Shown: piece by piece, positions 3,764 through 29,065 of the stretch | How the letters are laid out: each line of letters begins with the position of its first letter | Position numbering within the stretch: position 1 is the first letter of the stretch | Assembly: GCA_015063535.1 (NCBI GenBank) | Contig: SVTY01000007.1 | Location: 1-36,195 of the forward strand | DNA from: Oscillospiraceae bacterium | GTDB taxonomy: Bacteria; Bacillota; Clostridia; Oscillospirales; CAG-272 | Length of the DNA: 36,195 nucleotides | Direction: 5' to 3' | Notes under the pieces: model-generated | Told to the model about the DNA's origin: nothing | What the model saw: only the letters and a program-made list of their open reading frames with translations | Databases searched by the model: none | Made by a program: the position numbers and the translations under genes

Positions 3764-4888
3764 TTAATCCGCCGTCAAGCCGGAACGCTCAATACCCTGT
3801 ACCAGATATTTCTGACAGAAGAGGTACATCACGATCAACGGAGCAATCAGCATCAAGCCGCAGGTATTGCGGATCGCTGCATAATACAGATTCTGTCCGG
3901 CGTAATCCTTCGATAGCGATGCGGGAACATCAATGATGTCGGGCATCAGGATCGTTTCGGTATTGGTCGTAAAGAACAAGCCCGTATAGAAGTCATCCGT
4001 CCACTGCCAGGAGAAGGCAAACAGGAACACGGTAATCATCATAGGAACGGACAGCGGCAGAATAATGGTAAAGAAGGTGTGCATCACACCGGAACCGTCG
4101 ATATATGCCGATTCCTCCAGCTCATCCGGCACGCCTCTGAAGAACTGACGAAGCATAAAGATATACAAGCCATTCTTAAAGGCAAGTCCGCACAGAGACA
4201 TAATGATCAGCGGCCAATAGGTATTGGTCAGCGTCATTCCGTAGCCATCCTGGAACACCTTCGTCCACTCCTCGGTATCGGGAATGATATCCACCACACC
4301 CTCAAGGAAGGTGTTGCCAAACAACTCGATTCCGCCACCGTTCAAGAACTGAACGATTCCCAGAATGTCAAAGTCCAAGAACTTCATAAACAGGGAAAGC
4401 TGCAAGGTCTGGTGAGGAATGGTCAGCGAGAAGATCACTGCCAAGAACACAAGACCGTTCCCCTTGAATTTGAACTTTGCCAAGCCGTATGCCACAAAGC
4501 AGCAAATGAAGGTTTGGATCAAAGCCGTGCTTGCCGACAGCAACAGTGTGTTACCGAAGGCCTCTAAATAGTGATTTTCCGTCCAGATCGCCTTATACAT
4601 ATCCACCGAGAAATTCTTGGGGATCAGACGAACCGTCACATCCACAAAGTCATCGGGACCCATAAAGGAGCCGGCGATCTTGGAGAAGAACGGGAACAGA
4701 ACGATGTAGGCAATACCGATCAAAAGAATCAATCGGAAGATATACCAGATCACCCGCTTCAGGAAATAGAGGGAAAGGAACTTTGCCTTCAGTCTTTCTT
4801 TCAAAGGCGCCCGTTCGAAGTCCACACGGATCTTGTTCTTTGTTTCCTTGCGAACCTTGGGCTTATTTTCAATATTTTGTGCGTTCAT
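3764..4888 (-). CDS. Carbohydrate ABC transporter permease, MalG type (second pair)
   Basis: A 374-aa inner subunit of a sugar ABC importer and last gene of the locus. A long basic N-terminal tail (about 45 residues) precedes six predicted membrane spans. The cytoplasmic EAA loop, which docks to the ATPase, is at residues 257-278 (ELEESAYIDGSG... ILP). MalG-type permeases are usually 275-300 aa. The extra length comes from the N-terminal tail and an insertion at about residues 172-220, predicted to face outside. The start at 4888 has GAGGAGG upstream; an alternative start at 4945 overlaps the preceding gene and is less likely. Its partner is the MalF-type gene at 4899-5861. The substrate is unknown, presumably an oligosaccharide. 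Confidence 0.88.
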   Translation of the reverse strand: MNAQNIENKPKVRKETKNKIRVDFERAPLKERLKAKFLSLYFLKRVIWYIFRLILLIGIAYIVLFPFFSKIAGSFMGPDDFVDVTVRLIPKNFSVDMYKAIWTENHYLEAFGNTLLLSASTALIQTFICCFVAYGLAKFKFKGNGLVFLAVIFSLTIPHQTLQLSLFMKFLDFDILGIVQFLNGGGIELFGNTFLEGVVDIIPDTEEWTKVFQDGYGMTLTNTYWPLIIMSLCGLAFKNGLYIFMLRQFFRGVPDELEESAYIDGSGVMHTFFTIILPLSVPMMITVFLFAFSWQWTDDFYTGLFFTTNTETILMPDIIDVPASLSKDYAGQNLYYAAIRNTCGLMLIAPLIVMYLFCQKYLVQGIERSGLTAD

Positions 4889-4898
4889 TTCAACCTCC

Positions 4899-5861
4899 TC
4901 AATCCCGTCTCTGATAGAACACGAATGCCGAGAAGATACCGGCAACCAGTGCGATAATTCCGATGACGATCAGGAAGTACATCCACGCCATAGCAGAGCT
5001 GATGACGTTACCGTTGGGCTGATTGTACTGATCCGAAATAAATCTCATGACCACATTGGAATCGGTCGTAAAGGAGTCTATCACCGTATAGACTGCGTTC
5101 ACCAGGATCATCGGGCTGATCATCGGGAAGGTGATCTTCCAGAAGGTCTCCCATGAGGAAGCGCCATCGATCTGCACCGACTCATAAATAGCGGGAGAGA
5201 TCGACTGCAAGCCTGCCAGGAAGATCAGCATCTGTACACCGGAACGGTTGACGATATCATAAATGTTGTTGATCGCCGTCGTAACGTATTCCACCAATCC
5301 CTGACCGACTGCCATGCCGGAGAACATCTTTTCCACATCCATAGAAGAAACGATCTCCGAGGCAGTGCTCTCGCCGGATCCGTCATCAATTCCCTCTGCC
5401 CCCTCCATGTAATCGCCGAGGATATTCCCCGCCTCAATGGACTCCATAACACCCGTCGAAAGAATAACGGGAATGAAGAAGATGGCACGGAACACAGCAC
5501 GTCCCGCCATTTTCTGGTTCAGCAGGACCGCCATAAACAGCGAAAAGATCAGGATCATGGGAATGTCAAACACCATGTCTGCCAAACCGCTCAGCAACGT
5601 GGAAACATAGTTGGGGTTTTTAAACAGCGCATTCTCATAGTTCGCCCAACCCACAAATTCAAAGACCGGCTTGCTTCCGCCGCCTACAACCTTCATTTCA
5701 CAGAAGCTGTAGGTGATGGAATCAACGATAATGGGAAGATAGACCAACAAAAATCCAAGAACAAAAGGAAGAACAAAGATCCATCCCGCCCGTGCCTTCT
5801 TGCGTTCCAGAGAGGCAACCTTACGCTTTTTGGGCGCTTTTACTTTCATTTCACTTGTCAT
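4899..5861 (-). CDS. Sugar ABC transporter permease, MalF type (second pair)
   Basis: A 320-aa permease subunit with a basic N-terminal tail and about six membrane spans. The EAA loop is at residues 226-246 (YESVQIDGASSWETFWKITFP). An acidic, Ser/Gly-rich external loop at about residues 138-205 (containing GAEGIDDGSGESTASE) interrupts the usual spacing between membrane spans. This is unusual for MalF/UgpA-type subunits and suggests a contact surface for a binding protein or surface partner. AGGAGAGG precedes the ATG at 5861. It lies 18 bases after the DUF5696-type gene and 10 bases before its MalG-type partner, so all are probably co-transcribed. Confidence 0.88.
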   Translation of the reverse strand: MTSEMKVKAPKKRKVASLERKKARAGWIFVLPFVLGFLLVYLPIIVDSITYSFCEMKVVGGGSKPVFEFVGWANYENALFKNPNYVSTLLSGLADMVFDIPMILIFSLFMAVLLNQKMAGRAVFRAIFFIPVILSTGVMESIEAGNILGDYMEGAEGIDDGSGESTASEIVSSMDVEKMFSGMAVGQGLVEYVTTAINNIYDIVNRSGVQMLIFLAGLQSISPAIYESVQIDGASSWETFWKITFPMISPMILVNAVYTVIDSFTTDSNVVMRFISDQYNQPNGNVISSAMAWMYFLIVIGIIALVAGIFSAFVFYQRRD

Positions 5862-5879
5862 GCTTTACCTCTCCTTTCC

Positions 5880-8800
5880 TCAAGCTGCTCGCTCCAGCAC
5901 CAGATATCCGTATGCGTCGATCGTATAGGTACCCGCATGCTTGCCGTCCTTGATGGTAACCACCACACGGTAGTCATTGAAGTTCAAAAGGAAGGCAGTG
6001 CCGTTTTCGTAGACCTCATAGACAATGTTGTTGGGGTCGGAAACATAGCGGCTATCAACCGTATCTCCATCTCCGCCAACAGCTCCGGCACCACTGTTCG
6101 CTCCGGCACCTTCCTCATTTTTGTTCGTCTCGGGTGCCTGATACTCGGTAACGGTCATCAGCTTAGAAATGTCGGCAATGTCGTATTCAGCGACCGCCTT
6201 GTTGGTGTCATCCTTGACCTCGGTTTCCAAAACGACCGTTGCATCCTTCAGTGCTTTATACGCCGTAAAGGCATCGGCTACGGCAGTCTTTGCCTGTGCC
6301 GCATGATCGACAGCAGTCAAAGAAGCATACTGTGTTTCAAACTCTGCATCCAGCAGATCAAGAAGTGCTTCTCTGTACGCATCCTCAAAGGCTTGCTCTG
6401 CCTCTAACAGCTCAGCACCCGCCTTGGCATCGGCATACGCCTTCTTCACAGCATCCAGCTCATTCAGAACTGCGTTGACCGCCGTATACAGCTTGGTCAT
6501 CTGCTCATTCAGTGCCGCAGTAGCCTCCGTAGCAGCAGTCTTTGCCTTGTCTCTCATAACACGGGTACCGGTCTCTTTGTTTGTAACCAGATCCGATTTG
6601 TCACCGATCGTGGGATCATACTTATAATCCGCATGCTTCTTCTGCGCATCGCTGTACGCCTTGATCTTGGCATCAGCATCCGTAATTGCCTGATCCAGCG
6701 CAGTCTTTTGTGCCGTCACATTGGCGATCATCGCCGCCAGATTGCCGGACTTTCCTGCTGCCATGGCATCCTTTACCTTGACAACGCCGTTCTGAATTGC
6801 CAGCTTGGCATTCAGGATCTTAGACTGCTCTGCCTGGGTCTCGGCTTCCTTCTTGGCAGCCTCGGCGGCAATAGCATCCTTCACAGCTTGAATGGCATCT
6901 GCCTCCAGCTCATCCGCATCGGGAACACGAACGCCATCCAAGAATTCATGAACCTCAATGGTGCTGGTCTGCACATCCTTCAACAGCGCATTCAATTCGG
7001 TATACATGGAAACCATGTCCTCGAACCAAATGTCATACCGAACCGAGTAGTACTGGCTCAGAGTATGATACTCCTTCAGTGCGGCAGTATTCTGATACGA
7101 CAGAATGAAGTTCAGTGCGGCACCGTTCTCCAAGGATTTCAGGAATGCCAGCTCCAGATTACCCTCCATATTGATGGGCGTTCCTGCGATCTCCACATAT
7201 CCGTGAAGCACGATTCCGAGGAACGGAACGGCTGCGGAGGAAACCGAGAATCGGCTGGAATCCAAAGCAATATCGGTAATATGGTCCACGTACTTCCAGC
7301 AGTACGAATTACCGCCGGAGGTCATGATCTCGGCATCGGCAAACTGCTCCCGCAGATACGCAAACGCCTGAACGGTATATTCCTGACCGTCAGCGCGGTT
7401 GTAAGGCTCATCCTCATCAAAGTCCGAGTTCAGATAAGAGCCGAGAGTCGAAACCGAAATACCGATTGGCTCATATTTCTGATACTTCGGAGTAAATTTC
7501 TCATAGAAATGCTCAAAATATGCGGGAGAGATCGCCAGCTCGAAGTTGGTCACAAAAGTGTGCTTGGTTGCGCTGTACTCTCTCTTGGAGGTATATCGGT
7601 TGTCAATGGTCTTGACCGCATGCTTCTTCAGGGACAGACCGTCAAACATATAGTCGCCCGAGGTAAACACAAAGTCAAAGTCCGGGAACAGACCGAAGTC
7701 CTTTTCCTTGGCATAGGCAAGCAGATCCTCAAAATCCATATCGCCCTCTACCGCATTTTCCCACTTCAGCTTATACGGCATTCTCCGATTGGTCATACCG
7801 CCGTCGGTATACCCTGTCATAATGAAGTTGACATTCTGAATGCCTTCGCCTTCCAGATCCTCATACATGGTACGAATATCGTCAAAGCTGGTCAAGGGAG
7901 TCATAACATTGACAGGGATCGACAAAAATTTCTTTGTGGTTCTCACTGCGCCAAAGGTCTCAATGTACAGCGGGATATCCTCGCTCACATCCTCAGCAGT
8001 CAAACGGGTCAAAATCCCATTCTTCTCTAAATACGAGCGATACGCCTTTGCCATACCCACATAGGAGCACTCATAGAATTCGCTCATTTTCTTTTCTGCC
8101 GCCACATCTTCATCGGTCAGCATCATGTACCGAACCTTATAGTTGCCGGTATACTTCCGATCGGACACCACGGTCCATGTGGAGTTGGAGCCGACGGAGA
8201 TTGCATCCGCAAGATTGTAGGAGTCGGTAGGTCTGGGATAGACCGACATCTTAATCGCATTGTATTCACTGGTCTGACCGGCATGGAAGGAAGCCAACTC
8301 CAACAGGGAATCTCCCTCCTCCACGATGGCAACATAACCCCGATCCTTTTCGTAGCTTTGCGTCTCGACGACGTTGCCTTCTTCGTCAAGGATATTCTTG
8401 GTCAGCGTCTCTGTCTCGGTTACACCGAACACAGGATACCGAAGGGTCTCCTCATAGGTACCGGAGATCTCATGATACGCAAAATCCTGCCCGTAAAGCC
8501 TTCCCGTTACAAGCTGACGGGTTCCTAAAATCGCAATGTCCTTAAAGTCAAACAGCGTTCCCGAACCGTCAGGGAAGAAGGTATACCCGGGATTGGGGTT
8601 GGTTCCCGCACCGATATAGGGAAGGATATCGATACTGTCAAGGCGATATGCCGACTCATTGAACCGAATGCCGCCTGCAGCCAGCCGCACCACGAGCCCT
8701 GTGTCCTCCAGCGTGTATTCCAACGCCATTTTGAACAAGGGAGAGCTTTCATTCTCAGCCTCATATTCCACATACCGATGTGCCTCATCCAGGTCCTCAA

Positions 8801-9704
8801 AGGTATATTCGGGATGGTACTGCTTCATCAGATTTTCCAGCTTCTTTACCGTGTTCTCACCCATCTGTCCATCATCCAACACATAGATGTCACACTTCTC
8901 AAGAACAGGATACTGGTTCAGCATACTGACCTTCATATCCTCACTGATGGCATCGGACAGCCGATAAGGATCTCCGTAATAGGACTTGAACTGCGTAAAT
9001 CTATGCCGTTCGTCTTCCGCATCCTTTTCGGAAACCTTGCCGGAGGCGATTGCCTCCTCAATATTTGCCTCAATGGTTGCGAAGATCTCCTCCATAGCGG
9101 AGACCTCGATCATTCTGGGCAACAGGCTACGGCTCTCCTCACGACCGATGGCATACTCCACACGAAGTCCGCCCTTGATGGTCTTGACTGCGATCTGTCC
9201 GCGGTTTGCCGCCCACGTGTAGCTGTAATAGGTTCCGGGCGTATTGGTTTTTACGTCGGTGTAGTTAACAACGATCTGAGACAACAGCTCATCCTTCGTG
9301 CTGCCCACATTGTTGGTAGCCTTAGAGGAACCGATGTTCCAAGGGTTAGTAAACAGCATCTCGCCGCTGACCGTATCCACCACAGCGACCTCTCCGCTGA
9401 ATGCGTCGATATACAGCTCATAGCGTCCGTTTCCGTAACGGTAGTCCATAGTAGCCAGCTTATCCTCAGCCGAGGCAATGGTTCCCGTGGTTCCGTTCGC
9501 CAGCTTGTATGCACCGGTCTTGTAGGAATACTTATCCAGCGTCTCGTCCTGCTTGCTTGCGGCGTTGAACACCATCTGCGAGCTGGTACTACTCGTGTTA
9601 TATGTATACTCCTTCGTCTCCTCCTCTGCGCCGATCACCAAGGTCATTGCGCTGGCCAGCATGACAACAGCTAAGAGAGTCGATATTATTCTTTTTATTT
9701 TCAT
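5880..9704 (-). CDS. Large secreted DUF5696-type protein with glycosidase-like barrel and coiled-coil insert
   Basis: A 1274-aa exported protein. Residues 1-26 form a signal peptide with likely signal peptidase I cleavage after VIGA; there is no lipobox and no LPXTG-type anchor. Residues 90-560 are beta-rich and hold FFPDGSGTLFDF at 376-387, which I associate with the DUF5696 family. Residues 575-900 look like a TIM-barrel glycosidase-type domain, with acidic residues at strand-like ends (D634 in GYTDGG, D675/D677 in FPDFDF, E722 in NFELA). Residues 930-1165 are Ala/Lys/Glu/Gln-rich and predicted coiled coil. A Gly-rich linker (1198-1213) and a closing beta segment (1217-1274) follow. Relatives I recall are about 800-900 aa, so the coiled coil appears to be an insertion. 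Catalytic activity is not established; its position between transporter genes suggests glycan binding or trimming. AGGAGG precedes the ATG. Confidence 0.68.
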   Translation of the reverse strand: MKIKRIISTLLAVVMLASAMTLVIGAEEETKEYTYNTSSTSSQMVFNAASKQDETLDKYSYKTGAYKLANGTTGTIASAEDKLATMDYRYGNGRYELYIDAFSGEVAVVDTVSGEMLFTNPWNIGSSKATNNVGSTKDELLSQIVVNYTDVKTNTPGTYYSYTWAANRGQIAVKTIKGGLRVEYAIGREESRSLLPRMIEVSAMEEIFATIEANIEEAIASGKVSEKDAEDERHRFTQFKSYYGDPYRLSDAISEDMKVSMLNQYPVLEKCDIYVLDDGQMGENTVKKLENLMKQYHPEYTFEDLDEAHRYVEYEAENESSPLFKMALEYTLEDTGLVVRLAAGGIRFNESAYRLDSIDILPYIGAGTNPNPGYTFFPDGSGTLFDFKDIAILGTRQLVTGRLYGQDFAYHEISGTYEETLRYPVFGVTETETLTKNILDEEGNVVETQSYEKDRGYVAIVEEGDSLLELASFHAGQTSEYNAIKMSVYPRPTDSYNLADAISVGSNSTWTVVSDRKYTGNYKVRYMMLTDEDVAAEKKMSEFYECSYVGMAKAYRSYLEKNGILTRLTAEDVSEDIPLYIETFGAVRTTKKFLSIPVNVMTPLTSFDDIRTMYEDLEGEGIQNVNFIMTGYTDGGMTNRRMPYKLKWENAVEGDMDFEDLLAYAKEKDFGLFPDFDFVFTSGDYMFDGLSLKKHAVKTIDNRYTSKREYSATKHTFVTNFELAISPAYFEHFYEKFTPKYQKYEPIGISVSTLGSYLNSDFDEDEPYNRADGQEYTVQAFAYLREQFADAEIMTSGGNSYCWKYVDHITDIALDSSRFSVSSAAVPFLGIVLHGYVEIAGTPINMEGNLELAFLKSLENGAALNFILSYQNTAALKEYHTLSQYYSVRYDIWFEDMVSMYTELNALLKDVQTSTIEVHEFLDGVRVPDADELEADAIQAVKDAIAAEAAKKEAETQAEQSKILNAKLAIQNGVVKVKDAMAAGKSGNLAAMIANVTAQKTALDQAITDADAKIKAYSDAQKKHADYKYDPTIGDKSDLVTNKETGTRVMRDKAKTAATEATAALNEQMTKLYTAVNAVLNELDAVKKAYADAKAGAELLEAEQAFEDAYREALLDLLDAEFETQYASLTAVDHAAQAKTAVADAFTAYKALKDATVVLETEVKDDTNKAVAEYDIADISKLMTVTEYQAPETNKNEEGAGANSGAGAVGGDGDTVDSRYVSDPNNIVYEVYENGTAFLLNFNDYRVVVTIKDGKHAGTYTIDAYGYLVLERAA

Positions 9705-9726
9705 AGTAACATCTACCTCCTATCCG

Positions 9727-12117
9727 TTACACTCGATACTGGATCTCCGTTACGATATTGGTAACGAAGCTTACCAGCTTACTAAGCAAGGTACTGAACA
9801 AAATAGCAATAAACATAATAATGACCATACCGAGAATGGTTCCCAAAACCGTGATCACATTCTTACCCAAGCTGTAATCGTGGGTAACCATGGTTCCGAA
9901 GAAGAGCAGCATACCTGCCCAAACATAACCAAATGCCGTGATCACAGACAAAATATTTGCCTCAGTTGCCAACACAAAGTTGGATGCAATCGTCACGGGG
10001 ATCATGATGATAGCCAACGGCACCAGAGCATAGCAGGTAGCGATGAAGATATCCTTCAGACTTCCTTCTCCGTCGAACAGCGTAGTCAGACACCAGTTGG
10101 AAACGATCCACAGAGCCAACGGCACACAAACGCTCAGGATCACCGAGAAGACCGAAGCGTATCTTGCCGTGGGATTCAGAATATAGCCCTGACCCACTGC
10201 CTGATAATAGAACGCCACGATGGTAATTCCCAGGAAGGTGAGTGCCGCTCTTACCGAGCCTCTCTTTTCATGCTTCAGATCCCAATATCCGTCAAAGGGA
10301 TGGAACATCAGATGGAACACATAGATCAGCTCCTGTCCGTAGGTTTTCTTTCCGACCGTCACAGACACCCGCTTGTTTACCTTCTTCGCAAAGCCCATGA
10401 ACTTCGCCCAAGCGATGCACACGGCAATGATAAAGATCGGAACCAGCAGAATGAACTTGGACAGCCATTCCTTTCGGATCTCCTTATAGGAATTGGAATA
10501 GTTGACGGTATCGTATGCGGAACGGAAATATTCCAACGATTCCTCATACTGACCGCTGCGGTACAGTGCGTTACCGATTCCGATATAGGCAGCGTCAAAG
10601 TTGGAGTTTCTCTTCAGGATCTCCGTCCAGTCGTCGATCGCCTTATCATTCTGTCGAGTGTTCTGATTGTGCAACGCATGGATCAGAATATCGCCGTACT
10701 CGGTACGGCTGTACACCGTAAAGGTGGCATCGGTCTTGTTCAAAAGCAACATTCTGTCGCCCTGATACACGATACCGGCAAGTCCCGCCTGGGTAATGTT
10801 ACCCAACTGACGGCCCATATCACCAAAGGCAAACAGCAGATTTCCGTCGAAGTCATAGGTATAGACCTTACTTCTCTTCTGGTCAATGATCGACCATGTC
10901 TTTTCGGGACCGACCGCCACATCCACCACGGTAGAAGCGCCGAAGATCGTGTCGGAAACATTGACCTTGGCATTGTCCACCTCACCGGAGGGAGGATAGA
11001 AGCCGTTTCGGCGCATGATCTCGTCGCCGGCGGCGTTCAGCATCTTAACAGGCGCATAGTCGCCCGAGGTGGATTTCGAGGTGATCGAGGAAAGCACTTG
11101 CTCCTCATTCACCGAGGACGTGGTAACGTAAATAAAGTCACTGGTCAGCGTAATGTTGTTAAACTCGGTAGACACATAGGATTGCGTCTGCGCTCTCTGC
11201 TCTTCGGTCTGGAAGCGTCTCCAAATCCGCTCCCAAGCACCGATGGTAACCTTCTGCGCACCCACGAATCCGGTAAACACACCCTCTTCGGTCATCACGA
11301 TAATACCCTGATAGGTGGTAGAGGATACCACATACAACCGATCGTAGTTGTCCACTGCCAAGGCAACCGGCTTATACACGGCACCGTCATCGAACAGCTG
11401 CGATTCGGGCTGAGGGATGACATCCATAAAATTACCGTCATGGTCGAAGGTCACGATCCGATTGGCATCGGTATCGCACACATAGATTTTTCCGGGAACC
11501 ATTTCTCCTGCCACCATCTTGTCGGGGGTGATATACACACCCTTGGGAGCGGACAGTACATCTGCGATACCCTGCCCGTTCAAGAAGTTGGCAATGATAA
11601 ATTTCACCTTGTAATATCGGTCCAGAACCACAATGCGGTCATTTTCGGTATCGACGATGTACACATTCTCATTGGCATCCACCTCAATATCCGAGGGACC
11701 CGTGATCTTACTCAAGGTCTTATACAGATTCAAATAGTTGTTGTTGACGGTATTGTAGGTCGTAGTAGCGGTAGTGAGGGCGGTATTGGCCGCCTTGTAC
11801 TCATTGCTCTTCTCCCCAAATTCGGCCTTTGCCTGTGCGGCAGCGGCGGTCGCATCGTCCAACTGCTTCTTGGCATCCTCCCGATTGGCGTACAGTGCCG
11901 CCAGCTCCGGGTGATACTTGCAAAGGAACAGCTCATCCGTCAGCCCCATATAGGTTGCGTCCACCGTTTTGGAGGGCGTATAGGCATCGGGGGAATACAG
12001 TGCGGTTCCGTCAATGGAGTAGGTGTAGGTCTGATACGGCGTTGCTGCGCCTATGGGAAGAGCCAACACCATGACCATGGCAAAGATCAAACAGATAATT
12101 GCTGTCAGTTTTTTCAT
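9727..12117 (-). CDS. NHL-repeat beta-propeller / TPR / Yip1-domain membrane protein
   Basis: A 796-aa multi-domain surface protein. Parts in order: signal peptide 1-24; a short N-terminal segment; a coiled-coil stretch 71-136 rich in Ala, Lys and Gln; an NHL-type propeller 137-475, with repeat units such as PSDIEVDANENVYIVDTEND and a DTDANRIVTFDHDGNF unit at 215-230; a TPR pair 485-545; a membrane span 553-573; and a C-terminal Yip1-like domain 595-785 with about five spans. The propeller and TPRs would face outside, tethered by the membrane part. I recall YIP1-family proteins beside DUF5696 proteins in other Firmicutes sugar loci. It is the only clearly membrane-anchored non-permease product of the locus, so a scaffold or sensor role is inferred. 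The gene lies between the first permease pair and the DUF5696-type gene, 22 bases upstream of the latter. Confidence 0.78.
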   Translation of the reverse strand: MKKLTAIICLIFAMVMVLALPIGAATPYQTYTYSIDGTALYSPDAYTPSKTVDATYMGLTDELFLCKYHPELAALYANREDAKKQLDDATAAAAQAKAEFGEKSNEYKAANTALTTATTTYNTVNNNYLNLYKTLSKITGPSDIEVDANENVYIVDTENDRIVVLDRYYKVKFIIANFLNGQGIADVLSAPKGVYITPDKMVAGEMVPGKIYVCDTDANRIVTFDHDGNFMDVIPQPESQLFDDGAVYKPVALAVDNYDRLYVVSSTTYQGIIVMTEEGVFTGFVGAQKVTIGAWERIWRRFQTEEQRAQTQSYVSTEFNNITLTSDFIYVTTSSVNEEQVLSSITSKSTSGDYAPVKMLNAAGDEIMRRNGFYPPSGEVDNAKVNVSDTIFGASTVVDVAVGPEKTWSIIDQKRSKVYTYDFDGNLLFAFGDMGRQLGNITQAGLAGIVYQGDRMLLLNKTDATFTVYSRTEYGDILIHALHNQNTRQNDKAIDDWTEILKRNSNFDAAYIGIGNALYRSGQYEESLEYFRSAYDTVNYSNSYKEIRKEWLSKFILLVPIFIIAVCIAWAKFMGFAKKVNKRVSVTVGKKTYGQELIYVFHLMFHPFDGYWDLKHEKRGSVRAALTFLGITIVAFYYQAVGQGYILNPTARYASVFSVILSVCVPLALWIVSNWCLTTLFDGEGSLKDIFIATCYALVPLAIIMIPVTIASNFVLATEANILSVITAFGYVWAGMLLFFGTMVTHDYSLGKNVITVLGTILGMVIIMFIAILFSTLLSKLVSFVTNIVTEIQYRV

Positions 12118-12133
12118 GTTTCTCCTCCTGTTA

Positions 12134-13009
12134 TCAGTCTTTCATACCACTGGATCCCATGGTCTCAATAATATTGGACTGGGAAATAACGAATACGAGA
12201 ATCGGCACGATCATCATGACCACGGTAGCCGCTGCGGAAGCGCCCGCACGCTTGATACCGCCGGCAGTGATCTGACCGATGGCGTAGTTCAACGACTTCA
12301 GCTGCTCCGAATGGATGTAGATCGACGAACCTGCGTTCCAAAGTCCTTGGAACGAATACACGATCAGCGTCAGCCATGCGGGCTTAACCATCGGCATGGC
12401 AATCGTCCAGAAGATCCGAAGCTCGCTGGCTCCGTCCAGCCGTGCGCTTTCCAGCACCGCATCGGTCACGCCGGATTCCATAAACTGCTTCATCAAATAC
12501 AAGCCGAGAGTGGAGCCCCATGCGGGAATAATGATCGCCCAGTAGGTATCCACGATATGCAAGGCACTCATCAGAATAAAGCTGGTAACACCGGTCACCG
12601 TTGCATGGAACATCAGCGAGGTTCTGACCAGCTTAAACATGCCCTTACCGCCGGGGAACTTGATCTTCGCCATGGCATACGCTGCCAAAGAGGACACAAA
12701 CAGGTTACCGACCGTACCCGCAACCGACGTAAAGACGGTATTGAATATGTATCGGGAGAAGGGCACCAGATTTCCGCTCATCAAAGTAAACAGGTCCTTA
12801 AAGTTCTTCCCCGTAGGAGAGACTACATAAAATCTCGGGGGGAACATCCACAATTCATCCAAGGGCTTGAGGGCTTGGATCACCACATAGTACATAGGCA
12901 GGAACATAAAGAGTCCCAAAATAAACAGTACAACGGTGATGCCCGCATCTCCTCCTCGGGAACGTGACAGAACAACCTTATGCTTTCTTGTTCTTAACTT
13001 CTTTGCCAT
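12134..13009 (-). CDS. Carbohydrate ABC transporter permease, MalG type (first pair)
   Basis: A 291-aa permease of normal MalG size with about six membrane spans. The EAA loop is at residues 186-206 (LESARLDGASELRIFWTIAMP). It pairs with the MalF-type protein encoded one base upstream. The ribosome site is modest (AAGGTGGG), consistent with translational coupling to the preceding gene. Unlike the second pair in this locus it has no enlarged loop. Confidence 0.93.
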   Translation of the reverse strand: MAKKLRTRKHKVVLSRSRGGDAGITVVLFILGLFMFLPMYYVVIQALKPLDELWMFPPRFYVVSPTGKNFKDLFTLMSGNLVPFSRYIFNTVFTSVAGTVGNLFVSSLAAYAMAKIKFPGGKGMFKLVRTSLMFHATVTGVTSFILMSALHIVDTYWAIIIPAWGSTLGLYLMKQFMESGVTDAVLESARLDGASELRIFWTIAMPMVKPAWLTLIVYSFQGLWNAGSSIYIHSEQLKSLNYAIGQITAGGIKRAGASAAATVVMMIVPILVFVISQSNIIETMGSSGMKD

Positions 13010-13010
13010 A

Positions 13011-13958
13011 TCACGATCCCACCTTTGAAAGTATCTTTTTTACCAATGCGTTGGCTCCGATCATCACGAGGAAGAGGATCACCGCAATGGTAGACGAATA
13101 ACCGATCTCAAACCGTTGTCCGCCGTAGTCATCCAAGTGGTGCATAATGGTATGCGCCGCATAATCCACGGAGGGGAAGCCGCACAGTGCGGTAACAACG
13201 CCGCCAAAGCCGAAGGAGCTGGTGATGGACATGACCGCTCCGAACATCAGCTGCGGCTTCATGTTGGGCAGCGTGATGTACCAAAGCTCCTGCCAACGGT
13301 TGCGGATGCCGTCCACGGCGCCCGCCTCATACTGGGCCTTGTCAATGCCCTGCAAGCCTGCGATAAAGGACAGGAAGGCGGTACCCAACGAGGTCCAAAG
13401 AGCAACCACGATACACAAAGGCATGACATAGGAGGCATTTTGGAACCAAGCGATGGGCGTTGTTATCAAACCGAGCTTCAGCAGCATCGCATTGACCCAT
13501 CCATAGGCGTCTGCGGAGAACAGGGTACCCCAAACAAGGTAAACCTGACCGGCAATGGAGGGGGCATAGAAGATCAAGGTCACGATCGCTCTGATCTTGG
13601 GAGACAGCTCGTTGATAAACCATGCGATCAACAGAGACATAAAGTAGGACACGGGTCCTACGATCGCCGCAAAGATCAAGGTGTTCTTGACTGCGATCAG
13701 AAAGATATCATCATCGAGGAACAATCGTACATAGTTGTCGAACCAGACAATATTCGGCAACTCAAGCAAGTTAAAGTCTGTAAAGCTGATGAGGACGGAC
13801 AGCACCACAGGCAACACGGTAAAGCAGGTAAAGATCAGCATAAAGGGCGCTACCATGAAATAGGCGACCTTATTCCGCTTCATTTCCTTCCATGTCCACT
13901 GTCTGCGAGTCATATCCTGACGGACAACAGCTTTCTTTTGTGCCGTTTTTTGGGACAT
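13011..13958 (-). CDS. Sugar ABC transporter permease, MalF type (first pair)
   Basis: A 315-aa MalF/UgpA-type permease. A basic N-terminal tail is followed by about six membrane spans and the EAA loop at residues 210-231 (YEAGAVDGIRNRWQELWYITLP). The start at 13958 is chosen because AAGGAGAG lies just upstream; an in-frame ATG at 13994 would overlap the preceding gene. It is the second gene of the operon, directly after the binding protein, the usual binding protein-MalF-MalG order. With its partner it forms the first of two permease pairs. Confidence 0.93.
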   Translation of the reverse strand: MSQKTAQKKAVVRQDMTRRQWTWKEMKRNKVAYFMVAPFMLIFTCFTVLPVVLSVLISFTDFNLLELPNIVWFDNYVRLFLDDDIFLIAVKNTLIFAAIVGPVSYFMSLLIAWFINELSPKIRAIVTLIFYAPSIAGQVYLVWGTLFSADAYGWVNAMLLKLGLITTPIAWFQNASYVMPLCIVVALWTSLGTAFLSFIAGLQGIDKAQYEAGAVDGIRNRWQELWYITLPNMKPQLMFGAVMSITSSFGFGGVVTALCGFPSVDYAAHTIMHHLDDYGGQRFEIGYSSTIAVILFLVMIGANALVKKILSKVGS

Positions 13959-14000
13959 TATACTTCTCTCCTTCTTTGTTGTTTTCACGATCACAAGGGA

Positions 14001-17000
14001 TTATTTATAGGCTTCGTAGGATTCCAGCGCATCGGCAGCCTCTCTGAGGTATGTGGTAACTGCCTTGCCGTTGTCACCGAAGGGCTTGCCGAACAGATCG
14101 GCATTCAAACCGTCCAGGGAATCGGCGATCGCACGAAGCGAAGCATAATCCTCTGTCAGATATCCGTCGATCAGATCCATCGCATTGTTGTAAGCGGTGT
14201 CATACTCGCTGCGGTAGGAATCGGACTCCTTGATCTCCTCCAAGACCGTCTCTGCCTGAGCCATTCTCTTCTGAGCCAAGGTCTGTCCTACATAGTCCAG
14301 CGTCTCCAAGCCAAACTCTTCGCGCTTACGGGTGATCTCTTTGTTAATGGTGGTAATGTAGCCCTGCAATGCGGTAGCAGGATCTGCATGGGAGTTATAC
14401 GCATCTAAGAATGCGAACTGCGTATACCGTCCCACAATGTAGCTACCGGGATAGTTGGGAATGGATGCCAGACTGTTGAACTGATACGAGATCTGCTCAT
14501 ACTCGTCTGCCGTCCAGGGCAGGCTTTCTATGGCCTCCTTGTTTGCGGTGGGATGCTTTGCGGAGGGACCGAGAATGGCAATCATTTCATTCGAGTAATC
14601 CACTTGGAACTCCGCTCCCGAATGCCATTTCATAAATGCCCACGCATCATCCACATTGTCACATCCCGTGATCATCACGATGGCAGTAACACCGGACACT
14701 GCGACATTGTTGATCTTACCGGTCTCCTCGTCAGCATAGCCGGGCATGGGATAGAAGCCCCACAGACCCTCGATCTCGGTAGCGAACACCTTCAATTGGT
14801 TGTATGCTGCCGTATAACCCGCAAAGCCGATCGGCATCTCACCGGTTCGGAATCGGTTGGCAAAATCGTAAGAATAAGGGAAGGAATACATGGTAAACAG
14901 ATCACACATGGTGTTAAAGGATTCCAATGCCACGTTGGAGTCTAAATTGATCCGCATGCCGCCGTCGGCAAACAGCTCGCCGCCGCTCTGATACAGGAAG
15001 ATATTGGCATCGTTGGACATACCGATCTCCATATTGTTCGCCTGAAGCACGGGGATCGCTTCCTTCACGTCATCCCATGTCTTGGGGATCTCAATCCCCA
15101 GCTCTGCAAGAACATCCTTTCGGATAAACATCATCGAGAAGCTTTGCGTCTCGGGCAAACCGTAGCAGTGATAGTCTCCTTGGGCATCCTCAATACCAAG
15201 AACCATCATCGCCGCCTCGTTGAAGTTGGCTTCGATCTCCTCATAGCCCTCCAGATCCTCAATCTCCATTAAGGCACCTCGGATCGCATAGTTGATTACG
15301 TCTCCCTGTCCCACACCGATGTACACATCGGGACCCGTTCCCGACAGAATAGAGGGCAGCAACGTACCGCCCGCAACCAGCTTCAGGTTGATCGGAATTC
15401 CCTCCTGCGGCGTGAACTTGTTGTTCACCAAGCCTCGGAGAACCTGCATCTGGTCACGTCCGGTAGCGATCCAAACCTCCGCCGCTTCCTCGGATTCAGC
15501 ATCCTTGCTGATCGCACCCATGCGGTCATAATTTCGGAAGAAGGACTTCACGAAGCCCATGACCTCATAGGAGAAGGCTTCCCAGAAGTTTGCCTTTGCC
15601 TTGGGAAGCTCAGCGCCCTCGGGCTGGATCTGAATATAGTCAAGGATCAGCGGCTGTGTCTTGGCATCCGACAGCCAGGTACCCAGGTTACCGATATAGG
15701 TCTTAAGCTGTTCCAGGTTTTTCGCCACCTCGTCATCATCCATACCCATGGTATTCAGCACACGTGCCGCCTTTTCCAGCGTTGCGGTCATCGAGCTCTT
15801 CTCGCCCGCCTCAGCTTCCAGCTCAGCGGCGATCTGATACAGAGCCTCCGCCTGATCCAACAGGTCAGCCATCGTATCGGGCATCACACGGGAGAAGCCG
15901 TAATCCCGATATTGGTCGGGCGTGGTACCCGTCAGCTTCAGGATCTCCAGATAATCGCTGTTGATACTGTCCAAGGATTCGGTCACACGGCGCACGATAT
16001 CGCCCATGTTGCCAAGCGTTACCTCAAAGCGAAGCGTGTAGGTCACTCCCTCCTTGAAGTAGAAGCTGAACTCATCCGTTCCGTCGGTCAATACACCCGA
16101 CTGCCAATCGGAGGAATAATCGAACTGCAACCGTCCCGCCTCCTCAAAGGGAAGACCGTTGTAATAGCCTGCCTCGCCCTCCTTCAGAGAGCCGTCGCTG
16201 TAAATATACAGCATTCTGGAGGTATACATACCGTCCAGCACGTTCTGCATGTAGCGTGTTGCGATCTGATAGCGTCCGCTGCTTCCCACACGGAAGGTAT
16301 ATTCGATCCACTGTCCGGATCCCTGCCACTTGTCACCGCCAATGGTGTTCAGCACCGTGTAAGAGGTGGAAGAGGGCGAGGTGATCGCACTCGCAGTATC
16401 AGAAACAGGATAAATGGTCTGAGAGGAGGTTGCGGAGAAATATTCTCCTTCGATCTTGATCGTTTCGGTTCCGTTGGACTCCGTTGCGTATTTTTCGCTG
16501 TATTCCTCATAGGAGAGCGGCTCCTCCGGCGTTACCAAGCGGATCTCGGAGATCACCACAGGCTCGTTCACCGACTCCATGGAGATCGTCACCTTGCCGT
16601 CCTCGTCGGGCGTAATCGCAAACTCAAAGGGAGTCTGCAAAAATCCGTTGACATCCTTAAAGGTGTAGGTAGTCCAAGCGGGAGCCTGCACCAACGTCGC
16701 GCGGATCTCATTGCGGTCGATATCGGAGGTAAAGAACCGAACCGTCTGCTCATCCACCATCGAGGCAACATCGGCAGTCCAGTATTCGGGCATCTTATAA
16801 ATAATGTAGGAAACCCCGTCCTTTTCGGTCAGGCTTGCCTCAATTCCCATATCCTTCGCCTTGTTCAGGTAATCCTGTGCGCTTTCGTCCTTGGGCACCT
16901 CAAACTGCCCATCGGGATACACATTCTTCCACAGCTTCGCCATGGTCATGTACCGCGCCTCAGCAAAGGGAACCTTATCATTGATCATAAAGATCCGCTC

Positions 17001-17474
17001 AATCGCAGTAGCCTTATTCTCAATGGGGTAATACTCGATCTCTACATAGTAGCGAGCAGCCTCCTTGACCTGATCCGTCGTCCAGGAGACCATATTGGTC
17101 GCAGGAACATACAGACCCTGCTTTCCGTCATAGGTATCCACCCTTGCCAGCTCGGCATCGGGATCGACCTCAGCATCTGCCTGAGAAAGGATCATCTGCT
17201 CGGTCTTATGGTCTTTCTCCACTTCCTTGTAATAGCGCCAGTTTTTGGTCGCATCGATCACCACATCCTCCGTGGCACGATCCACACCGGTTTGTGCCTC
17301 CGCATGAATGTAGTCATTGTACGAAATCGCATTCAACAGCTCCCGTATATCGTCCGTGGTAGTCTGAGAAACCGAATCGTTCTCCTCGGCGCCGATCATG
17401 ACAACACCGCTGCAAAGCAGAAATACCAAAGCGAGTACAAAAGCCGTAACTCTTTGAAATTTCGTCTTTTTCAT
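14001..17474 (-). CDS. Giant extracellular solute-binding protein with N-terminal beta (CBM-like) modules
   Basis: An 1157-aa exported protein, over twice the usual 420-550 aa of a sugar-binding protein. Residues 1-29 are a signal peptide likely cut after MIGA. Cys21 follows Leu-Leu, so a lipobox is not supported. Residues 110-315 form a beta-rich module. Residues 335-515 resemble a CBM6/35-type sandwich (WQGSGQWIEYTFRVGSSGRYQIATRY). A helical segment (530-600) and a closing strand (LILDYIQIQPEG) follow. The solute-binding fold spans about 665-1055 (LPSILSGTGPDVYIG, KTWDDVKEAIPVLQ, TGEMPIGFAGYTA). The last 95 residues form another helical bundle. It is first in the operon, with a leader of about 125 nt. 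The added modules suggest it binds a large glycan at the surface. Ligand unknown. Confidence 0.85.
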   Translation of the reverse strand: MKKTKFQRVTAFVLALVFLLCSGVVMIGAEENDSVSQTTTDDIRELLNAISYNDYIHAEAQTGVDRATEDVVIDATKNWRYYKEVEKDHKTEQMILSQADAEVDPDAELARVDTYDGKQGLYVPATNMVSWTTDQVKEAARYYVEIEYYPIENKATAIERIFMINDKVPFAEARYMTMAKLWKNVYPDGQFEVPKDESAQDYLNKAKDMGIEASLTEKDGVSYIIYKMPEYWTADVASMVDEQTVRFFTSDIDRNEIRATLVQAPAWTTYTFKDVNGFLQTPFEFAITPDEDGKVTISMESVNEPVVISEIRLVTPEEPLSYEEYSEKYATESNGTETIKIEGEYFSATSSQTIYPVSDTASAITSPSSTSYTVLNTIGGDKWQGSGQWIEYTFRVGSSGRYQIATRYMQNVLDGMYTSRMLYIYSDGSLKEGEAGYYNGLPFEEAGRLQFDYSSDWQSGVLTDGTDEFSFYFKEGVTYTLRFEVTLGNMGDIVRRVTESLDSINSDYLEILKLTGTTPDQYRDYGFSRVMPDTMADLLDQAEALYQIAAELEAEAGEKSSMTATLEKAARVLNTMGMDDDEVAKNLEQLKTYIGNLGTWLSDAKTQPLILDYIQIQPEGAELPKAKANFWEAFSYEVMGFVKSFFRNYDRMGAISKDAESEEAAEVWIATGRDQMQVLRGLVNNKFTPQEGIPINLKLVAGGTLLPSILSGTGPDVYIGVGQGDVINYAIRGALMEIEDLEGYEEIEANFNEAAMMVLGIEDAQGDYHCYGLPETQSFSMMFIRKDVLAELGIEIPKTWDDVKEAIPVLQANNMEIGMSNDANIFLYQSGGELFADGGMRINLDSNVALESFNTMCDLFTMYSFPYSYDFANRFRTGEMPIGFAGYTAAYNQLKVFATEIEGLWGFYPMPGYADEETGKINNVAVSGVTAIVMITGCDNVDDAWAFMKWHSGAEFQVDYSNEMIAILGPSAKHPTANKEAIESLPWTADEYEQISYQFNSLASIPNYPGSYIVGRYTQFAFLDAYNSHADPATALQGYITTINKEITRKREEFGLETLDYVGQTLAQKRMAQAETVLEEIKESDSYRSEYDTAYNNAMDLIDGYLTEDYASLRAIADSLDGLNADLFGKPFGDNGKAVTTYLREAADALESYEAYK

Positions 17475-17607: not shown

Positions 17608-17636
17608 ATCTTACCACATTTTCATCGAAAAGTCAA
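17608..17636 (-). promoter_or_regulatory. Sigma-A promoter of the ABC locus
   Basis: On the minus strand, TTGACT (17631-17636) and TAAGAT (17608-17613) are separated by 17 nt. Transcription would begin near 17600 and leave about 125 nt of leader before the binding-protein gene. It is the only good promoter seen for the seven-gene locus. Confidence 0.7.
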
Positions 17637-18112: not shown

Positions 18113-18151
18113 AAAAAAAAGAGAAGCCGCCGAGAGCCAACAGCTCTCGGC
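18113..18151 (-). terminator. Terminator of the sufC/SufB-like operon
   Basis: On the minus strand, a 9-bp GC-rich stem (18143-18151 with 18129-18137, 5-nt loop) is followed by GGCTTCTC and eight T residues. It lies about 35 bases past the stop of the SufB-like gene. Confidence 0.85.
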
Positions 18152-18185
18152 AGCTCATTCCGCTTCAGCTCTCACAGCAAAAAAC

Positions 18186-20249: not shown

Positions 20250-21635
20250 TTATTTTTTCATAACCTTCACGTCGATCTCAATCCATCGCAGATACCACGT
20301 ATCCTCATCCTCTCCATGAGCGTCATACAGCAGATACATCATCTCCTTGCATTGATCGCCCCGAACATACATATCCAAGTCATCAATACCGTCCCGTTGC
20401 GTCCATTCCACCGAATCGACCCAACCGTAATCTCTCTTCGCCTTTTCCTCATCAACCCGATCGTCGCTGTTTGCAATGTTCGAGCTGTGTTCTTTGTTAT
20501 ACAAATGAATTTCATGGGTACCGTCCACCCATCCGATTCCTGCAAAGCCTTTTTCGCATTTGGAGCTGACCTTCATATCAAACCAAAAGGTATATTCCTC
20601 CGTCATATACTCTTTCAGGGAAGACATATTCAATGTATGCTTTTTTCCCACCTGCTCCAAGCCAAATACACCGTTATCTATGATCTTGAAATCGGGATTG
20701 TCTTGATAAAATGCAGATGCATACACATAATCCGCCGTCTTATTGGGCAGATCCTTTTGGAACAGATCGACCGTAATACCTGCCAGCATCTCCTCGGTCA
20801 GTGCCAGCTTTGCCTCATCGCTCGATACACTGAAATCATTGGTCGTGCTAAAGCGGAACATATCGACAAAGGACTCGGGCTTGGGAACCGTTACATAAGT
20901 ATATTGAACCGTCTTGTCGGCAATGTCGCAAACGAGTACCGCATAGACCTCAAAATCGGCATAGACTACGTACCGATAATAGCCAACCTCGGAATCCTTG
21001 TCGATCTTCACTTCGCGGGTACGACTGTTCTGCACCTTGTCGCTGACCTTTTTGGTAAAGGTTGTCTTGTCGCTCTCGGTATGCGTATGGCTCAAGGAGG
21101 TAGAAAGAGAGGTCGAGACCTTAACGCCAAAATCCCCGCTCAAAGCGCCATAGCTTGCCTTGATCCCGGCAGATGCGGACGTATTCACCTCCGCCTTCAC
21201 CGACGCATTGGTAGAATTGCTCACGCTGTTTTCCATCGCCTCGGTATAGGTGTCCTCGGTCACAGTGGATTCCGACCACGCATAGGTCGATACCGTTCTT
21301 CCGTCGTGATAATACGCATCCTCATAATAAACAGGCACGTTCTTGGTCTCGCCCAGCTTGAAATAGAAATAATTGTATTCTCCGTCGGTGACAGGAACCC
21401 CTGCCAAGGCAACGTTGCTCGCCGCCTCGATCTGATAGGGTCTCGTCACCATTTGTTCGGTAACGTTATAGATGTAATTTTCGGTGTTCTGCCGATTGCC
21501 CGACGGTGCCTGTGCCGCCGTATCGCTTTCAGTCTCACCGCCTACGCCAATCAGCGTGCCGTTACACGCCGCCAACGACAGCAGCATCGCCGCCATCATC
21601 ATAATAGATAGAATCCGAATTCCTGTTTTTTTCAT
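20250..21635 (-). CDS. Lipoprotein of unknown function with Ser/Thr-rich, pore-former-like segment
   Basis: A 461-aa exported lipoprotein; I do not recognise the family. The signal peptide ends in the lipobox LAAC with Cys24. A short polar linker and an N-terminal domain follow, then a 60-70 residue stretch of alternating Ser/Thr and small residues (NASVKAEVNTSASAGIKASY, then STSLSTSLSHTHTESDKTTF). This recalls the amphipathic beta hairpins of aerolysin-like pore formers. The C-terminal half has Trp-rich beta elements, including a repeated DGTHEIHLY / YLRWIEIDV style. The start at 21635 has AAGGAG 7 nt upstream; a TTG at 21659 is a poorer choice. It follows the membrane coiled-coil gene by 29 bases and is probably co-transcribed. 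A pore-forming role is only a structural guess. Confidence 0.6.
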   Translation of the reverse strand: MKKTGIRILSIMMMAAMLLSLAACNGTLIGVGGETESDTAAQAPSGNRQNTENYIYNVTEQMVTRPYQIEAASNVALAGVPVTDGEYNYFYFKLGETKNVPVYYEDAYYHDGRTVSTYAWSESTVTEDTYTEAMENSVSNSTNASVKAEVNTSASAGIKASYGALSGDFGVKVSTSLSTSLSHTHTESDKTTFTKKVSDKVQNSRTREVKIDKDSEVGYYRYVVYADFEVYAVLVCDIADKTVQYTYVTVPKPESFVDMFRFSTTNDFSVSSDEAKLALTEEMLAGITVDLFQKDLPNKTADYVYASAFYQDNPDFKIIDNGVFGLEQVGKKHTLNMSSLKEYMTEEYTFWFDMKVSSKCEKGFAGIGWVDGTHEIHLYNKEHSSNIANSDDRVDEEKAKRDYGWVDSVEWTQRDGIDDLDMYVRGDQCKEMMYLLYDAHGEDEDTWYLRWIEIDVKVMKK

Positions 21636-21664
21636 ACCTGATCTCCTTTTTATTTTCAAAATGA

Positions 21665-25866: not shown

Positions 25867-26577
25867 TCAAAGCTCTCCGAACAGGCGAAGAGCTTCCATG
25901 GCGGCGTTTTGCTCCGCTTCTCTTTTGGAGCGTCCCTCTCCCCGCCCGATAATATTGGAGTTCAGTCTTGCCACAACGGTAAAGATCTTATTATGGTCGG
26001 GACCGCTTTCTCCAACAACGGCATATTCCAAGCAATCGCCCTCGGTCTGCTGTACCAGCTGTTGCAGCTCGGTCTTGGGGTCTACCGAGATCGGGCTGTA
26101 ATTCTCTTGCAGTTCACGCACGATAAAGGGAAGCAAAAAAGCACGAACTACATCCATTCCTTGAGTCCCCGCATCCAAAAAGATAGCGGCAATCAGCGCT
26201 TCAAAGGCATTTTCCAATGTGGATTGCCGTTCCCTACCGTTGTTCTTTTCTTCTCCGTTACCAAGATACAGAAACTGTCCCAGTTCAATTTTTCTGGCAT
26301 AAGAGGCAAGTGCCGACGATTGCACTACCGCTTTGCGGCGGCTTGTCAGCTCGCCCTCCGGCAGATCGGGGTATTCCCGATACAGATAGTCACTGACCAC
26401 TGTCGCAATCACGGCATCTCCCAAAAACTCCAACCGCTCATTGCAAACGGCGTGCTGTTTTCTTGCCCGCAATTCATTGGCATAGGAGGAGTGCGTCAAT
26501 GCCTCTCTGAGGACAGTTTTGTCCCGAAAGGTATATCCGATCGTTCGTTCCAACAGGGATAGTGAAAGCTGTCCCAT
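25867..26577 (-). CDS. rnc: Ribonuclease III
   Basis: A 236-aa double-strand-specific endoribonuclease that processes rRNA precursors and structured mRNAs. The RNase III signature NERLEFLGDAV is at residues 46-56 and the second catalytic segment (LENAFEALIAAIFLD) at 121-135. The position corresponding to E. coli Asp114 appears as Asn123, which may occur naturally in Firmicutes homologues; Glu126 is kept. A C-terminal dsRNA-binding domain (from about 163) includes GRGEGRSKREAEQNAAMEAL. AAAGGAG lies upstream of the ATG. It follows plsX by 39 bases, without the acpP and smc genes that often flank rnc in Firmicutes. Confidence 0.96.
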   Translation of the reverse strand: MGQLSLSLLERTIGYTFRDKTVLREALTHSSYANELRARKQHAVCNERLEFLGDAVIATVVSDYLYREYPDLPEGELTSRRKAVVQSSALASYARKIELGQFLYLGNGEEKNNGRERQSTLENAFEALIAAIFLDAGTQGMDVVRAFLLPFIVRELQENYSPISVDPKTELQQLVQQTEGDCLEYAVVGESGPDHNKIFTVVARLNSNIIGRGEGRSKREAEQNAAMEALRLFGEL

Positions 26578-26616
26578 CGCTGTATCTCCTTTCTTACAGT
26601 ATAGAATAACAACCGA

Positions 26617-29057: not shown

Positions 29058-29065
29058 ACGCATCC

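Follow-up and report, generated by a model that had tools for sequence, protein, structure and literature searches.

A conserved seven-gene cassette with two permease pairs and its probable dispersed receptors in an Oscillospiraceae bacterium

The 36,195-nucleotide (nt) stretch analyzed here (the window; contig SVTY01000007.1 of assembly GCA_015063535.1, from an Oscillospiraceae bacterium of the order Oscillospirales) contains a cassette of seven minus-strand genes, S-a1-b1-N-D-a2-b2, that fill positions 17474 to 3764. S is a giant solute-binding protein (SBP), a1/b1 and a2/b2 are two pairs of permeases of ATP-binding cassette (ABC) importers, N joins an NHL propeller and TPR repeats to a Yip1 membrane domain, and D is a DUF5696 protein (Table 1). 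We consider it rather likely that the cassette is the hub of a double importer, the second part of which would be fed by many scattered receptors of one SBP lineage, referred to here as s2. Importer 1 would consist of the receptor S and a1/b1, and importer 2 of a2/b2 and the accessory surface proteins D and N, where D is a probable glycan binder and N a predicted propeller held in the membrane by its Yip1 domain. SBP lipoproteins of ordinary size, belonging to the s2 lineage, would act as receptors for importer 2. In other parts of the phylum, one s2 gene or a small number of them lie close to the cassette; in the lineage of the window, s2 genes would have moved away from it and would have increased in number in several genomes (to ten in this one). 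The dispersed receptors would differ in their ligands and take turns in docking on the one a2/b2 core, and a single MsmX-type ATPase would power both cores.

DUF5696 exceeded its cut-off in 39 of 398 genomes sampled across the phylum; within the order, it did so in 104 of 197. We compared 64 DUF5696 loci, one per genome with extra copies left out: the window, three loci that were counted in the window's order set with their order unchecked (L032-L034) and 60 further stretches. In 53 of the 64 loci, profile labelling recovered S-a1-b1-N-D-a2-b2 complete, in the same order and on one strand, which excludes a chance origin of the cassette. This order was also confirmed with profiles in Butyrivibrio fibrisolvens D1 pNP243 and on a plasmid of Paenibacillus cellulosilyticus. 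Six loci had N-D without S in the fetched stretch (L109, L110, L111, L115, L116 and L118), of which L115 and L118 reach contig ends; in L119 and L122, N-D-a2 precedes S-a1-b1; and in L091, L120 and L124 one gene was missing or broken in the labelling. The b1 of L120 is split, its two pieces being 1.6 kb apart and separated by an antisense open reading frame (ORF), possibly an insertion. N was labelled as two genes in 20 of the 64 relatives.

The original prediction, which described a seven-gene locus with a 1157-aa binding protein, two permease pairs, N and D and no ATPase gene, was confirmed in each of these points: all seven genes are ORFs of the sizes given, on the minus strand, and no ATPase gene lies within the locus. 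From S to b2, consecutive genes are spaced by 6, 1, 16, 22, 18 and −47 nt, which leaves little space for an internal terminator; none was seen between the genes when the region was scanned for terminator-like hairpins, so that the splitting of the locus by such a terminator, raised in the same prediction, found no support in gaps of at most 22 nt. The region contained 17 promoter-like sites compared with 16.7 in shuffles and 16 terminator-like sites compared with 14.5, so that neither type of site is enriched. Its longest terminator-like hairpin (18156-18124) lies at the upstream border of the cassette, all others having no more than 8 pairs.

The seven genes appear to fall into two blocks. 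Distance-matrix correlations were calculated over the 55 loci with all seven genes, with 500 permutations and kinship ignored. They were highest within N/D/a2/b2 (r 0.926-0.951), followed by those within S/a1/b1 (r 0.844-0.920) and those across the two blocks (r 0.727-0.876), which overlap with the S/a1/b1 range. None of the 500 permutations reached any observed correlation. Given that common descent alone yields high values, only the ranking of the correlations is informative, and this ranking suggests two co-evolving blocks, S-a1-b1 and N-D-a2-b2. The possibility that the second pair comes from an unrelated operon is rejected by these correlations and by the gene order that was conserved among the DUF5696 neighborhoods.

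An ordinary SBP recurs in the flanks of the cassette. The first cluster of this s2 group consisted of 17 sequences, two of which were pieces. When presence was defined as more than 100 bits to the s2 profile within the fetched stretch, s2 was found in 15 of the 20 loci outside the order and in 1 of the 44 loci of the window's set (1 of 41 without L032-L034; Fisher p 1.4e-9 for outside versus inside, kinship ignored). Locus L108 contains four whole s2-type ORFs and a fifth in two pieces, all consecutive, and B. fibrisolvens pNP243 has an s2 gene and a second SBP gene 3' of b2; we call these two arrangements intermediate states. No s2 gene was found near the window's own cassette. In the same genome, an SBP_bac_1-type lipoprotein on contig C15 led to ten full-length SBP lipoproteins on nine contigs (C1, C5, C7, C8, C9, C11 with two, C14 at 77 kb, C15 and C20). 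None of these ten orphan SBPs is near a permease, and all ten have lipoprotein-type signals as judged by pattern and by eye. A match to PF01547 or PF13416 was found in two of the three orphans that were scanned against Pfam, both below the curated cut-off.

To place the orphans, an alignment of all ten was searched against six genomes that each encode from 17 to at least 47 MalG-type permeases. In all six genomes, the best match was the s2 gene at the DUF5696 cassette (E 1.4e-21 to 6.6e-9), with coinciding coordinates (G142/L117, G229/L112, G085/L114, G066/L106, G376/L107 and G335/L105); thus, the orphans are closest to the cassette's receptor. The second match in G376 and the second and third matches in G335 are about 8 kb from the other DUF5696 copies of those genomes. 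The second match in G066 is not near any DUF5696 match listed, and further matches in G142, G229 and G085 were short, had E-values of 9e-5 or worse and lay away from the cassettes. The original prediction had offered two options, a shared S or D as the receptor of the second pair. Both overlook a third one, to which the s2 genes in 15 of the 20 outside loci and the ten dispersed SBPs of the window's own genome point.

PF00528 gave nine matches in the window's genome, four of them in the cassette, and the MalG-type model matched only b1 and b2; no CUT1-type permease was found in the assembly beyond those of the cassette. The five other PF00528 matches represent four importers, one of the spermidine type with a fused SBP and three with an adjacent likely SBP as judged by inspection. 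Since each of these importers has a likely SBP, a2/b2 is the sole pair of this genome without a local one.

We further counted orphan-type SBP rows (E 1e-8) and MalG-type matches (E 1e-6) in 38 genomes, 29 from the order and 9 from outside; as the best 39 SBP and the best 47 MalG candidates were scored, high counts are lower bounds. Exactly two MalG-type matches, as many as the cassette alone supplies, were found in 14 of the 29 order genomes. In the upper part of this group, SBP rows numbered 12 in the window's own genome (ten genes), 30 in G402, 19 in G433, 12 in G508, 5 in G452, 4 in G483 and 4 in G570; of these, G402, G433, G508 and G452 are more complete than the window's own assembly. 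In the order genomes with more MalG-type matches, the SBP rows and MalG-type matches were 20/4 in G522, 15/5 in G535, 13/3 in G434, 11/3 in G413, 9/3 in G545, 7/4 in G509, 5/3 in G414, 4/3 in G536, 3/3 in G411, 3/3 in G580, 3/12 in G407, 1/3 in G556, 1/3 in G571, 0/3 in G573 and 0/3 in G559. In G559, the DUF5696 and S matches are weak (E ~1e-5), so that this genome, a single case, has no full cassette, and it has no orphan-type SBP. The nine genomes outside the order had 0 or 1 SBP row with 17 to at least 47 permeases. PF00528 matches were listed for the window's genome and six relatives. Among the SBP rows listed for five genomes (10 of 12 in the window's own, 28 of 30 in G402, 13 of 19 in G433, 10 of 12 in G508 and 5 of 5 in G452), all 66 were at least 6.4 kb from a PF00528 match or on a contig without one. 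In addition, no cassette-type permease was found in 20 fetched regions that hold 35 orphan-type SBPs. Consistent with an importer that would be shared by several SBPs, the SBPs of the cognate lineage outnumber the permease pairs and lie without local permeases. We infer that the orphans would dock on a2/b2 and bind different glycans, and that D and N would aid capture or docking.

Several observations weigh against this proposal. The similarity that links the orphans to s2 is weak (36-67 bits to the s2 profile), and when compared with the first orphan, the others reach only 20-26% identity. The two SBPs that follow the P. cellulosilyticus cassette matched both s2 (36-48 bits) and the orphan model (12 bits or none) weakly, and two loci of the window's set, L097 (60 bits) and L101 (54 bits), have weaker SBP matches in their stretches. 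Among the genomes with two MalG-type matches, seven had few SBP rows (2 in G523 and G406, 1 in G453, G469, G548 and G492, and 0 in G400). With five such genomes at 0-1 and two at 2, receptor expansion is not general; the orphan query, derived from a single genome, may overlook divergent SBPs elsewhere. As the assembly is 83.9% complete, a CUT1 permease may have been missed, and contig ends could hide permeases beside the orphans of relatives. The glycan context of the window's lineage is also poor. No glycosidase adjoins the window's own cassette, and no glycoside hydrolase (GH) family was found in seven genes flanking inside-order cassettes, which instead encode an esterase, a phosphodiester glycosidase domain with dockerin, repeat, Cna_B and zinc-ribbon proteins, one protein with a marginal match and one with none. 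In the orphan flanks of relatives, where 78 of 92 chosen proteins were scanned and the best 25 of 131 families listed, the families listed included GFO/IDH in four members, UxaC in one, UxuA in one and many housekeeping families. With flanks so mixed and rich in housekeeping genes, the orphans of relatives are not clear glycan loci, and the idea that orphan SBPs generally belong to glycan loci was rejected. Finally, the orphans could instead dock on a1/b1 or serve roles other than transport.

It is also conceivable, if rather unlikely, that the seven proteins form a single large complex in which S feeds both pairs, D and N form a scaffold at the surface and the scattered SBPs play no part. Such a complex would fit the joint occurrence of S, D, N and both pairs in the 53 complete loci, the correlations of at least 0.727 among all seven genes and the five cassette genomes with 0-1 orphan SBP matches. 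The blocks nevertheless look separable, as seen in the six loci with N-D but no S and in the reordered L119 and L122, and the s2 genes in 15 of the 20 outside loci also count against a single complex. Moreover, S itself gave 7 to 17 match rows in five genomes (G062, G135, G165, G082 and G040; some rows are pieces of one gene), so that the S block of the cassette can expand too. On balance, the double importer with dispersed s2-lineage receptors remains the preferred reading.

The role assigned to D in this double importer rests on its relation to GH129 enzymes. A profile of 18 DUF5696 proteins matched, as whole sequences, 8rzg (E 2.9e-12) and 5opq (E 4.4e-12), with 8rzg, 8rzk and 5opq ranging from 2.7e-12 to 4.4e-12; we take 5opq, a 3,6-anhydro-D-galactosidase, and 8rzg to belong to GH129. 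The same profile matched NagBb (5wzn; whole-sequence E 4.5e-5), which the part of PMC8106489 consulted presents as a GH129 enzyme. The similarity covers three parts of 5opq (N-terminal, barrel and C-terminal) and, in NagBb, the barrel, and the single GH129 stretches are weak on their own (i-Evalue 0.0001 to 0.27). Asp330 of NagBb, presumably the catalytic nucleophile, aligns with T638 of the window's D, in a column that is acidic in 6 of 64 sequences, with chain numbering taken as residue numbering; Asp322 aligns with T630, where the column is acidic in 2 of 64. Judged from these alignments, D is a distant GH129 relative without the GH129 nucleophile, and because the nucleophile is absent, D would probably bind glycans rather than cut them. 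D also has an Ala/Lys-rich insert near its C-terminus.

It should be noted that the column of D761 is Asp in 56 of 64 relatives and that of E859 is Glu in 60 of 64, and such conservation makes another activity of D possible. If D were an active glycoside hydrolase that uses these or other acids, the cassette would be an ordinary degrade-and-import locus and the orphans would be decaying genes or sensors. Kinship to active GH129 enzymes favors this view, which we regard as quite unlikely given the near absence of acidic residues in the nucleophile column and the other nearby Asp column, and given that all ten orphans are full length with lipoprotein-type signals. Alternatively, D itself could be the receptor of pair 2, a surface pseudo-glycosidase that passes glycan to a2/b2 without an SBP. 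Its co-variation is tightest with N, a2 and b2, its GH129 nucleophile is absent, and 43 of the 44 stretches of the window's set lack s2 above 100 bits. This very unlikely alternative is at odds with the ordinary SBP that accompanies N-D-a2-b2 in the 15 outside loci, and neither family nor structure profile searches matched D to any SBP family or structure. The link that the original prediction proposed between the second pair and the DUF5696 protein thus stands in part: the association itself agrees with the correlations (r 0.93-0.95) and with the six loci of N-D without S, while the s2 genes speak against D as its receptor.

Outside the order, the cassettes occur near enzymes for plant polysaccharides, of which the mannanase-type GH26 is the commonest in a list, not a rate, of glycosidase neighbors picked by eye. 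GH26 was found with Pfam in L106, L112 and L120 and by flank clustering in L107 and L114, and the GH26 protein of L120 carries the mannan-binding carbohydrate-binding module (CBM) CBM27. GH10, GH3, GH35, GH42, pectate lyase and GH28 are also found near these cassettes. These neighbors bear on a further possibility, that the cassette serves the cell's own envelope by recovering wall or capsule fragments and does not serve nutrient uptake. Such a function would explain the wide conservation of the cassette in the order (DUF5696 in 104 of 197 genomes) and would suit both the position of the window's cassette between alaS and suf genes and the tRNA-modification-like gene seen by eye upstream of the cassette in four relatives (L068, L071, L099 and L100). 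With outside-order cassettes placed near plant-polysaccharide enzymes, including the CBM27-bearing GH26 of L120, we find an envelope function improbable and prefer an import function for the double importer.

The neighbors of the window genome's own orphans (20 proteins scanned, six of them without a family) included Exo_endo_phos, metallo-beta-lactamase-fold and Glug-motif proteins, AraC regulators, a GH2 and a GH20. Exo_endo_phos proteins were near the SBP in five of nine orphan regions (L136, L137, L138, L140 and L142), and in four of these a lipoprotein-type signal was recognized by eye; a metallo-beta-lactamase-fold lipoprotein was near an orphan SBP in L141. These neighbors thus form a recurring arrangement. 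In the P. cellulosilyticus locus (L164; NZ_CP054609.1 79495-105120), genes for four LLM-class flavin-dependent oxidoreductases come after b2, along with other redox genes interleaved with the two SBPs, which hints at a substrate other than a plain sugar.

Table 1. Genes of the cassette and border elements in the window
Feature	Position	Strand	Evidence
S, giant SBP, 1157 aa, first cassette gene	14001..17474	-	ORF; PF01547 E 1.2e-22; co-varies with a1/b1
a1, MalF/UgpA-type permease of pair 1, 327 aa, GTG start	13011..13994	-	PF00528 E 6.5e-6, UgpA model E 5.4e-15
b1, MalG/UgpE-type permease of pair 1, 291 aa	12134..13009	-	PF00528 E 6.4e-7, UgpE model E 4.5e-23
N, NHL propeller + TPR + Yip1 membrane domain, 796 aa	9727..12117	-	Yip1 E 7.2e-14, NHL E 5.4e-5, TPR_1 E 1.3e-5
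D, DUF5696 protein, 1274 aa	5880..9704	-	PF18952 E 8e-132
a2, MalF-type permease of pair 2, 320 aa	4899..5861	-	PF00528 E 2.5e-10
b2, MalG-type permease of pair 2, last gene, 393 aa from TTG	3764..4945	-	PF00528 E 2e-12, UgpE model E 9e-16, MalG model E 1.6e-14
Terminator-like hairpin, 15 pairs, T-rich tail	18124..18156	-	3' of suf genes (SufBD-type), upstream border of the cassette
Promoter-like site TTGACT-17-TAAGAT	17608..17636	-	Upstream of S; consensus match only

S comprises a signal sequence, in which no clear lipobox was seen by eye, an N-terminal region, a CBM35-like module and a CUT1-type SBP domain. Although hmmscan assigned it to no SBP family, a search of the genome with PF01547 matched at 14610-15449. 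Against known structures, the S profile matched sugar-binding proteins, the best being Lin1841 (5ysb; E 6.9e-33), and its positions 300-398 matched a stretch of the glucanotransferase 5x7g (E 5.6e-8) that we take to be CBM35. We assign S, by its similarity and co-variation, as the putative receptor of pair 1. PF00528 (BPD_transp_1) matched all four permeases, with a1 exactly at the cut-off, and an EAA-type coupling loop was seen by eye in the alignment of the cassette permeases. In an alignment of 14 sequences, six of which were displayed, a2 contains an insert of about 50 aa that is absent from a1 and also present in distant relatives. For b2, an ATG near 4888 is probably the start rather than the TTG, as judged by eye. 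N has a signal sequence (by eye) ahead of the propeller, and its profile matched TPRs and NHL propellers, both designed and natural.

Contig C14, one end of which forms the window, belongs to an assembly of 1.67 Mb and 22 contigs that is probably metagenome-derived. Its cassette is preceded by SufBD and an ATPase and followed by alaS (by eye). Two minus-strand ORFs (469 and 457 aa; 20250-23038) without a Pfam match at E 0.001 lie between the suf genes and a Na/alanine symporter gene (23310-24785), and the ordinary-looking region 25867-33713 encodes members of the RNase III, FA_synthesis (PlsX-type), GidA, topoisomerase I, DprA and SpoU methylase families.

An MsmX-type ATPase of 371 aa is encoded near the end of another contig (C2:163-1278), and the absence of an ATPase gene from the cassette is therefore not regarded as an anomaly. 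Among 33 ABC_tran matches, five ATPase sequences were read and the rest were judged by ORF size. This ATPase matched 7x0q (E 5.8e-169) and MsmX itself (6yir; E 4.6e-135), and the protein is 55% identical to the UgpC encoded directly upstream of S in P. cellulosilyticus. We infer that it would serve both pairs. MsmX-type ATPases are shared in Bacillota (PMC7658222, in part).

The proposed system resembles several known ones in part. To our knowledge, importers that depend on MsmX or MsmK lack accessory proteins like N and D. As in the CUT1 importers that share the MsmX of Bacillus subtilis or the MsmK of Streptococcus pneumoniae (PMC7658222, in part), no ATPase gene is found in the operon and one is encoded elsewhere; unlike them, the cassette has two pairs in one operon and a giant receptor. 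A permease core with SBPs that outnumber the cores is also a feature of multi-SBP importers. ABC importers with several SBPs were reportedly described by Thomas in 2010 ('Homes for the orphans') and by Chen in 2010 (Cbc), and a beta-mannan importer with two SBPs is said to have been described by Ejby in 2019. The cassette differs from these in its roughly 10-30 dispersed sugar-type SBPs for one pair that has no local SBP, predicted from genomes alone, and in its two conserved accessory proteins.

Clusters with GH161 include ABC transporters that lack an ATPase gene, and one such cluster of Acholeplasma, which encodes two permeases but no SBP, was proposed to share the SBP of the neighboring cluster (PMC6484121, in part). 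That case involves two neighboring clusters and one SBP, whereas here one cassette would be combined with many dispersed SBPs, N and D; Yip1 is not mentioned in the part of the text of PMC6484121 consulted. Group II energy-coupling factor (ECF) transporters have one energizing core common to several substrate-binding subunits. In the portion of PMC7755397 consulted, S-components compete for one ECF module. These cores take membrane S-components for micronutrients, whereas the cassette encodes a type I importer that would take lipoprotein SBPs. D is similar by profile to GH129 glycosidases, but the nucleophile position is not conserved and D sits with a permease pair and a propeller-Yip1 protein. 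Likewise, the polysaccharide utilization loci of Gram-positive bacteria combine a receptor with permeases, sometimes near glycoside hydrolases, whereas the window's cassette has no glycosidase in or beside it, two importers and, for one of these, dispersed receptors. In the literature searched, no paper was found that mentions DUF5696, nor one that mentions the YIP1 family together with solute-binding proteins. MsmX sharing, several SBPs per importer and SBP sharing between clusters are thus already known; the conserved double-importer cassette with GH129-like and NHL-Yip1 proteins and the scale of receptor dispersal look new.

It is possible, and is put forward tentatively, that one a2/b2 core with a D/N platform takes ten to thirty exchangeable receptors, so that the diet would have been widened by copying receptors and not transporters. 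D and N would then be the platform that enables receptor exchange, which would suggest a function for DUF5696 and NHL-Yip1 proteins, and the cassette would be a clear case of a sugar ABC importer grown by adding receptors to one channel. Annotation usually infers the substrate of an importer from neighboring genes, a rule that would fail for this lineage, whose nearest named relatives are metagenome assemblies (from roe-deer caecum and others). If the proposal is correct, the diet of this bacterium must be read from its orphan receptors.

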